A DNA stretch of 64,000 nucleotides from Natronococcus occultus SP4. GTDB taxonomy: Archaea > Halobacteriota > Halobacteria > Halobacteriales > Natrialbaceae. Shown here piece by piece: positions 23,934 through 25,948 of the stretch; the first letter of the stretch is position 1, and every line of letters begins with the position of its first letter. The notes beneath the pieces were generated by a model, which had not been told where the DNA came from, searched no databases, and was given only the letters and a program-made list of their open reading frames with translations. The position numbers and the translations under genes are program-made. The stretch is taken from NCBI RefSeq assembly GCF_000328685.1, contig NC_019974.1, positions 1,727,001-1,791,000 of the forward strand, given 5' to 3'.

Positions 23934-24376
23934 GTGACGTTAGCACCTAACTGTTCGCTGACCTCGTGCAGGTGCACGAAGCGGATGTTCGAGAGTCGAT
24001 CCAGCGACGTATCCTCGAGGATCTCGGCCTCGTGGTCGTCGTCGTCCTCGTAGGGGTTGCCGACGTAGACACGAACGTTGTCGAGCGCTTCGCGACCGCG
24101 TGGCTTCTTGTACGGCAGCATGCCACGGATCGAGCGCTTGAAGATCATGTCCGGTCGCTTCGGGTGGTACGGACCGCTGTCGGAGCCAAGCTCCAGTCGC
24201 TTGCGGTAGGTCCCGAAGACGTCTTCCTCGTCGCCGGTGATGACGGCGTCCTCGGCGTTGACGACGGCGACGCGCTCGCCATCGAGGGAACGCTGGGCGA
24301 CCTGGCTGGCGACGCGACCGAGGATACAGTCGCGGGCGTCGACGACGACGTCCGCGTCGAACTCTGCTAGACTCAT
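23927..24376 (-). CDS. rpl13: 50S ribosomal protein uL13
   Basis: A 149-residue large-subunit protein with the uL13 signatures [19 protein letters not shown] and [21 protein letters not shown] short acidic insertion ([12 protein letters not shown]) is typical of halophiles. Its start overlaps the rpl18e stop by four bases. Confidence 0.96.
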
Positions 24377-24726
24377 CGAATCACCCGTACGTTGGATCCA
24401 TCGGGGTTGTCCTCGAGCACCTGCTCGAGGGGGACGGTGTCACCGACCTGTTCGATCTTCGTCTCCGCGGACGACGAGAAGTCGACGGCGGCGACGGTGA
24501 CGTTTTTCTGTAGCGCGCCGGATCCCAGCACCTTGCCGGGAACGACGACGGTCTCTTCCTCGCGTGCGTATCGCTCGATACGGCCCAGGTTGACCTCGGC
24601 GTGAGTACGCCGGGGCTTCTCGAGTCGATCCGCAACGTCTTGCCAGACGTCGGCGTCCCGCTCACGGGACGTCGACTTCAGCTCGGCGATGAGATCGTTG
24701 AGCCTCGGATTCGTTTTACTACTCAT
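24373..24726 (-). CDS. rpl18e: 50S ribosomal protein eL18
   Basis: A 117-residue archaeal/eukaryotic eL18 with the signature [12 protein letters not shown] and ending NVRVIR. The ATG at 24726 gives [17 protein letters not shown]; a longer in-frame reading would run into the hairpin region and is rejected. It begins the second half of the ribosomal operon after tRNA-Leu, with 254 bases holding a large inverted repeat between the two. Confidence 0.95.
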
Positions 24727-24793
24727 TGGTTTCCTCCAAATACTGCGAGATCGACGGACTCGGAGGTGTCGTCGATCGTGAAATCGGTTGATG

Positions 24794-24873
24794 ATACGGT
24801 CGGACAGAACCACTGTGAGAGTTCGCCACTCCAGTCCGGCGAACTCTCCTCAGTGATTTCTGTCCGACAGTAT
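24794..24873. repeat. 80-base near-perfect inverted repeat
   Basis: The left arm GTCGGACAGAA-CACTG-GAGAGTTCGCC is mirrored by GGCGAACTCTC-CAGTG-TTCTGTCCGAC around a 10-base loop, with ATAC/GTAT at the outer ends. One- and two-base mismatched bulges separate the paired blocks. It lies between tRNA-Leu and rpl18e. It could be a MITE-like insertion, the paired ends of a deleted IS, or an RNA hairpin used in processing or termination after the tRNA. Confidence 0.75.
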
Positions 24874-24980
24874 GAGAAGTGCTGCAGGGATCCGAACCGT
24901 CGGGAGACGATACTCGACTCCCGTAGCTCAGATCTGTCCGTTCCATTTTTGCGGCTCTTCCGTTCGGTCGAGCCGAAAAA

Positions 24981-25065
24981 TGCAGGGAGCAGGATTTGAA
25001 CCTGCGGACTCCTACGAGACAGCGCCCTGAACGCTGCGCCGTTGGCCTGACTTGGCTATCCCTGC
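24981..25065 (-). tRNA. tRNA-Leu (anticodon CAG)
   Basis: An 85-base minus-strand tRNA. The acceptor stem GCAGGGA pairs with TCCCTGC and is followed by discriminator A. The D-arm includes TAGCCAAGTCAGGCC, the anticodon arm AGCG-TTCAGGG-CGCT gives CAG, a long variable arm follows (class II) and the T-loop reads GGTTCAAATCC. No CCA is encoded. It sits between rpoD and rpl18e, as in several other haloarchaeal genomes. Confidence 0.95.
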
Positions 25066-25198
25066 TCGCACTTCCGTGTACCCGTCGCCCCTTCAAACCC
25101 CTTTCGATTCCGACTGCCGACGGCTCGCCAGTCTCGTTGGCAGCGGCGCTGGCGAGAGGTGTGTCGGCGACGTGGGGTCGGGGGCGTCGGATCATGCT

Positions 25199-25948
25199 CT
25201 ATAGCTGTACTGCTTCTTCGAGTTCGGTTGCGCGCGCTTCCAGGCTGTCGGTGGCCCGCGTGACCAGCTCCTCGACGCTGAACGAGCCGTCCGTCTCCAC
25301 GTGGAAGACGAAGGCGTTTGGAACGTCCTCGAGCCGGACCTCTTTGCCCGGATGTCGCGTCGAGAGATCGTGGTCGAACTCGCTTGTCGGCACGAGTTCG
25401 CCGTTCTCCTCGACGACGCCCCGGACGATCCGGGACTCCGGTTCCTGGAACTCCGGCAGATCGTCGACGACCTCGACGCGCTGGAGATGTCGGTAGCCGA
25501 CCGCGACCCCGCCCTGGTGTTTGGCGTGGTCCTTCCCGCGCTCGAGACGGGCGTCGGCCTCGGCCTCGAGGCGCTGGCCCTCCTTGAGCTCGATGATCGG
25601 CACGTTCTCGTCTGCCGGCTCCACGAGGGAGTCACTGGAGACGAGATCGCCCGAGTAGGCGGTGGCTGGTCCTTCGACGTCGATCGAGAGCGTGACGGTG
25701 TCGTCCTCGACGAACTCGCCTTCCGGCGGGGTCGTCAACGGGACGAGCCCGAGTCGCAGGGCGAGCTGTTCGTCGAACATCACCGACGAGTTCTCGATGA
25801 ACCGAACGGTGTCGATCGCCATCGTCGGCACGTCGGCGACCATCGCGCGACGGATTCCGTTGGCGAACCCGGGAGAGATCCCGCGGACGAGGAATCGTGC
25901 CTCTCGATCCCCGCGTTCGACGAACTCGACGTCGTACTCCTCACTCAT
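25199..25948 (-). CDS. rpoD: RNA polymerase subunit D
   Basis: A 249-residue alpha-like subunit (RPB3/AC40 counterpart) that pairs with subunit L to start polymerase assembly. It contains [20 protein letters not shown] and [11 protein letters not shown], both hallmarks of the family. The central insertion lacks the clustered cysteines of Fe-S-binding RpoD versions. Symbol follows archaeal usage and is not the bacterial sigma factor. It follows rps11 by three bases. Confidence 0.95.

Follow-up and report, generated by a model that had tools for sequence, protein, structure and literature searches.

On the minus strand of the window (the whole 64,000-nt stretch of DNA analyzed here), the gene order is RNA polymerase subunit D, tRNA-Leu(CAG), L18e, L13, S9, RNA polymerase N, RNA polymerase K, and enolase. 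An inverted repeat of 80 bases, ATAC...GTAT, was confirmed at positions 24794 to 24873, and its predicted placement between the tRNA-Leu and rpl18e genes was borne out (Table 1). The 78-bp element within this repeat lies 68 bp from the ATG of rpl18e and 108 bp from the tRNA gene. The spacer has two other features. On the sense strand, the tRNA gene is followed directly by TTTTT and then by an imperfect hairpin, CGGCTC...GAGCCG, with AAAAA at its end (24943 to 24980), and the TTTTT and hairpin are common to three relatives in the genus (genomes G001, G002, and G005). In addition, a degenerate partial copy of the tRNA-Leu 3' end (TGCAGGGA...GAACCGTCGGGAG) is present at 24883 to 24912, about 70 bp from the real tRNA; this copy resembles either an att-like scar or an incomplete tandem duplication and is clearer in the same three relatives and absent from G003, G004, G006, G007, and G008.

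Table 1. Features at and around the tRNA-Leu/rpl18e spacer, in window coordinates
Feature	Position	Strand	Remarks
rpl18e	24373-24726	-	NF003079, E 2.2e-48; first protein gene downstream of the insertion
Left TGA target duplication	24792-24794		Single TGA in G001, G002, G004, G005, and G006
Left terminal inverted repeat TACGGTCGGACAGAA	24795-24809	+	One change from the family end TACTGTCGGACAGAA
MITE-like element, 78 bp, TAC...GTA	24795-24872		Absent at the site in 8 relatives; 81-86% identity to 13 elements
Right terminal inverted repeat	24858-24872	-	Reads TACTGTCGGACAGAA, identical to the common family end
Right TGA target duplication	24873-24875		Same five-relative comparison as the left copy
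tRNA-Leu(CAG)	24981-25065	-	ARAGORN and Rfam; upstream of the insertion
RNA polymerase subunit D	25199-25948	-	

The fold of the region was strong. Positions 24780 to 24890 of the plus strand folded as RNA at -53 kcal/mol (z = -5.8), and none of 200 shuffled sequences did as well. Folded alone, the 80-mer formed 31 pairs around a 10-nt loop on the plus strand (-48.6 kcal/mol) and 33 pairs on the minus strand, the sense strand of the operon (-53.1 kcal/mol). Such an energy was not unique in this GC-rich DNA: 24 of 12,784 overlapping 80-nt segments, taken every 5 nt across the window, were at least as stable. Energy alone would not single out the hairpin; the shuffle z-score and the genome comparisons do. 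Its arms are broken by bulges and mismatches, which is probably why it was missing from the output of an ungapped inverted-repeat finder run on the window. The original prediction of an 80-base near-perfect hairpin was thus correct as to its reality and exact in its coordinates, and slightly generous in the words "near-perfect."

The site was compared among nine genomes of the genus, the genome carrying the window included, with positions 24720 to 25070 as the query, and only that genome had the element there. In G002, the query matched in two parts (1 to 75 and 154 to 351, at positions 2554 to 2627 and 2625 to 2829) that overlapped by 3 nt, with the hairpin absent. The occupied site reads GGTTGATGA, then TACGG...CAGTA, then TGAGAAGTG; the corresponding empty site is GGTTGGTGAGAAGTG in G002, TTGCTGAGAAGTGG in G001, TCGCTGAGAAGTGG in G005, and GGTTGTGAGAAGTG in both G004 and G006. 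In these five of the eight relatives, the flanks aligned closely around a single TGA. The site reads GGTCTGATAGAAGTG in G003 and G008, and in G007 an unrelated stretch of roughly 80 bp lies between the rpl18e leader and the tRNA-Leu gene, before AGGTGAGAAGT (locus L042). No family end was found at up to three mismatches in the tRNA-Leu/rpl18e spacer of any of the eight relatives. Since the 78 bp are absent from the relatives and flanked on both sides by TGA, they constitute an insertion with a TGA duplication.

The ends of the element belong to a dispersed family. With at most one mismatch allowed, the 15-base family end ATACTGTCGGACAGA occurred in 74 of the 125 genomes searched in the taxonomic family, and one genome, G098, had 221 matches, versus 1 for a reversed control. 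Many ends occurred in convergent pairs at fixed spacings in these genomes, among the matches listed. In a sample of 292 genomes across the class, 43 contained the exact 15-base end, where single matches may be due to chance, and the listed matches of this sample included convergent pairs 80 to 110 bp across in families f1, f4, f8, and f9. Exact convergent pairs in named contigs amounted to 36 stretches, from Natronorubrum, Halobellus, and metagenome-assembled genomes (MAGs). Near-identical copies occur in Halobellus clavatus. In G003, where the family ends were first noticed, they occupied three places: two full 108-bp elements flanked by TCA and a third, one-ended site. Seven plasmid records matched the 108-bp class and four matched only an end of the element in Table 1, and none matched L103, an element locus in G043. 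Phage records yielded no match to the family. In viral contigs, 17 stretches contained one exact 15-mer each, none paired at the spacing of a short element, and these were taken as chance matches.

A total of 104 distinct elements were extracted from the loci examined, with both ends required to match at up to three mismatches, a length of 60 to 130 bp, at least one end starting with TAC, and 10 nt of flank on each side, and with overlapping alternatives dropped. They measured 71 to 108 bp, with peaks at 78 to 79 bp (69 elements) and 107 to 108 bp (25 elements). The 13 elements with 81 to 86% identity to the one in Table 1 were all from Natrialbaceae; relatives of 77 to 78 bp with homologous cores occurred at other sites in other genomes, and the copies sat in unrelated flanks. 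Both element ends carry TACTGTCGGACAGA. On the inner side of this shared sequence, as read by eye, the two arms of Natrialbaceae elements differ recurrently (about AAGTCAnTGA versus AACTATTnGA), those of Halobellus elements read about AAGTTCGTGAA and AACTATGTGAA, and in both groups one arm begins with AAGT, soon followed by TGA, and the other with AACT or AACG. The core palindrome differs among the size classes.

Identical 3-nt flanks were present in 78 of the 104 elements and were always of the form TNA (TGA, 37; TCA, 33; TTA, 4; TAA, 4); the other 26 had no identical 3-nt repeat, and none of the 104 had a 4-nt repeat. Most elements were found by a pattern starting with ATAC. This pattern dictates the A and T on the inner side of the TNA repeat, so independent evidence comes from the outer T and outer A and from agreement at the middle base. 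In the 94 elements with better ends, the outer T was present in 84 and the outer A in 83. A second empty site emerged from a comparison of G003 with G008, which lacks the G003 element at C37:196709-196816; in G008, the matches on either side of the site again overlapped by 3 nt. Here TTCA and TCACCGC enclose 108 bp in G003 and G008 reads TTCAGCGC, giving a TCA duplication; in a longer view, GGTTCA, TACTG...CAGTA, and TCACCGCTCGAGACGTC in G003 correspond to GATTCAGCGCTCGAGACGTC in G008. Together with the tRNA-Leu/rpl18e spacer, this site shows insertion at two independent places.

Several loci contained other arrangements of short elements. A family copy is inserted inside another copy of the same family in L083 (about 1501 to 1660), and a copy in L093 contains, at about 306 to 386, a nested element of a second family, with ends TACGGWTTACTGTAC and TCA on both sides. 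In Halobellus inordinatus, L204 includes a bare palindrome, ATACTGTCGGACAGTAT, as if two ends had been fused without a core (about 437 to 453). The same species has another short element family with ends near TATAGTAGCRTTTGCAA, whose five pairs are L114 2855-2939, L121 4713-4797, L205 1806-1891, L210 985-1069, and L213 1249-1414; four of them are 84 to 85 bp and the last is 165 bp.

The original prediction had suggested a genome search for the ends and the whole 80-mer. Elements with such ends are dispersed in related genomes, and a single copy was detected in the genome carrying the window. A search with a model of 15 elements, in which 150 candidates from a first screen were scored per genome, detected no second copy there; in the genus, the same search gave 30 matches in G003, 17 in G008, and 0 in G002, counted on both strands, so that the number of elements is lower than the number of matches. 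Fifteen further sites in the genome carrying the window matched one end at three mismatches, versus 7 for the reversed control, and none of the 15 formed a convergent pair at element spacing.

These data led us to conclude that the hairpin is, with high probability, a MITE-like element that belongs to a dispersed family, was inserted at a TNA site, was moved in trans by a transposase, and is now immobile. The assignment is supported by the structure, the target duplication, and the empty sites: the element is short, lacks a transposase gene, has terminal inverted repeats (TACTGTCGGACAG), and is flanked by a TNA duplication, and multiple dispersed copies exist in related genomes, with a single copy detected in its own. 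The prediction of a MITE-like insertion was accordingly upheld by the dispersed family, inverted ends, TNA duplications, and empty sites in relatives. The comparisons show that a 78-bp near-palindrome with 15-bp ends (TACTGTCGGACAGAA) entered a TNA-type site and duplicated TGA. We infer that a cut-and-paste transposase from another element acted in trans to move it, presumably by binding the conserved ends plus subterminal motifs and leaving the inner palindrome free to vary. The recurrent difference between the arms inside the ends, together with the variable core, would fit a transposase that reads both ends and ignores the core. The element would now be a single copy that no longer moves and that is transcribed with the rest of the operon, forming a hairpin of little effect.

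A very unlikely explanation is that the hairpin was selected as RNA, serving the tRNA-Leu-rpl18e transcript as a leader or in processing or attenuation. It would fit the strong fold of the sense strand and the location, since the tRNA-Leu of Haloarcula marismortui is, by the title of a study by Kromer and Arndt (1991; via PMC2871058), cotranscribed with this operon, so that the 78-bp element is probably transcribed as well. In an alignment of 15 family members, with the structure of the element in Table 1 as the reference, sliding the partners by 1 to 3 columns reduced pairing from 92.9% to 33 to 48% and the covariation score from 0.090 to 0.023 to 0.052; this drop is expected because the structure of the palindrome came from one of its own sequences. 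Against shuffled partners, the same alignment argued the other way. Paired cells were 92.9% versus 92.4% after shuffling (a value as high arose in 94 of 500 shuffles). Changes on both sides of a pair numbered 4 versus 2.2 (equaled or exceeded in 46 of 500), and 172 of 500 shuffles reached the covariation score. For the 15 members, RNAalifold predicted 24 pairs and a total of -30.09 kcal/mol, to which covariation contributed only -0.51. At gathering scores, Rfam identified two tRNAs only and no family on the hairpin; six further matches under relaxed settings were far below gathering scores and were taken as chance. The pattern that the original prediction had named as evidence against a mobile origin, presence in all relatives with compensatory changes, was not observed: the hairpin was absent at the site from all eight relatives in the genus, family copies had unrelated flanks, and pair changes were not above those with shuffled partners. 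These data thus lend no support to selection on RNA structure, nor to the prediction that the hairpin separates expression of the two sides of the operon or helps tRNA processing. The inverted repeat is a stable property of the family, but the aligned sequences do not indicate that it is maintained as RNA. An effect of the hairpin on the tRNA-Leu/L18e operon is possible.

A MITE typically shares its ends with an autonomous transposon, the source of its transposase. Such a partner was sought through convergent ends some 0.3 to 4 kb apart in the loci examined and through ends read in further loci. No autonomous transposon with family ends was found in the loci examined, among the matches listed or in searches with PF01609 and PF13359. 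Four longer spans (L091, L164, L259, and L260) proved, from their translations read by eye, to consist of distinct elements, short or truncated, next to ordinary genes. Exact ends lacking a partner within the stretch examined occurred in L165, L201, L202, L203, L208, and L214 and may represent truncated copies, sites that match by chance, or ends of unseen transposons. PF01609 had 17 matches in two element-rich genomes, G126 and G098; in a scan of every one of these loci that allowed four mismatches, the only good end pair was a short element in L195, alongside single weak matches, some of them convergent. PF13359 had no match in six genomes searched. The other origin named in the original prediction, the joined ends of a deleted IS, looks unlikely. 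The ends and the target duplication are of the transposon-insertion type, as they would be had a full IS entered the spacer and its transposase then been deleted on the spot, but no IS with these ends and no transposase remnant was found in the loci examined, and 77- to 78-bp relatives sharing a homologous core are present elsewhere in other genomes, which argues that the short form itself spread. Such an internal-deletion scar is extremely improbable.

The MITE-like family was also compared with known systems. IS5-type elements (IS1031 group) and PIF/Harbinger elements make TNA/TWA duplications, and their 3-bp TNA-like target resembles that of the family, whereas PF01609 loci in the two element-rich genomes had no convincing end pair and PF13359 was not detected in the six genomes. 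REP/BIME and IS605-derived palindromes are dispersed palindromes, like the TACTGTCGGACAGAA family, but are not known to make a target duplication, unlike the family. Haloquadratum walsbyi has MITEs, PATEs, and SMRs (PMC3119063). Its MITEs, compared by description, are like the family in being short, mostly noncoding, bounded by terminal inverted repeats, often flanked by a target duplication, and present in several copies, and unlike it in having ends related to known transposons, according to the passages on them in that paper. A small mobile repeat like the SMRs, mobilized by some unrecognized mechanism, would share a similar size class (about 110 bp for SMR-A), prominent inverted ends unrelated to known transposons, and many copies. 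In the corresponding passages, however, SMR-A and SMR-B are described without target duplication and SMR-A as targeting PATE/IS605 palindromes (PMC3119063), while the family duplicates TNA, as seen at the two empty sites and in 78 of the 104 copies. By that definition, the TACTGTCGGACAGAA family is not an SMR, and we regard this assignment as highly improbable.

MITEs as such are already known in archaea, and a passage of a review published in 2024 on MITEs of prokaryotes mentions Sulfolobus, Halobacterium, Haloquadratum, a Desulfurococcus species, and "several other archaeal genomes" (PMC10969869). We did not find a published description of this widespread family in the open-licence literature, supplements excluded, and a text search for CTGTCGGACAG in that literature returned only papers unrelated by title. 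It is conceivable, though doubtful, that the family represents a haloarchaea-wide class of palindromic nonautonomous elements whose transposase is of a type that has yet to be associated with ends like these; it might read some 25 bp at each end and tolerate any hairpin core. The 78-bp hairpin itself is explained as mobile DNA, a caution for anyone inclined to annotate it as a regulator of the ribosomal operon. The family as a whole is a useful item for annotation and raises the question of which transposase moves such elements.
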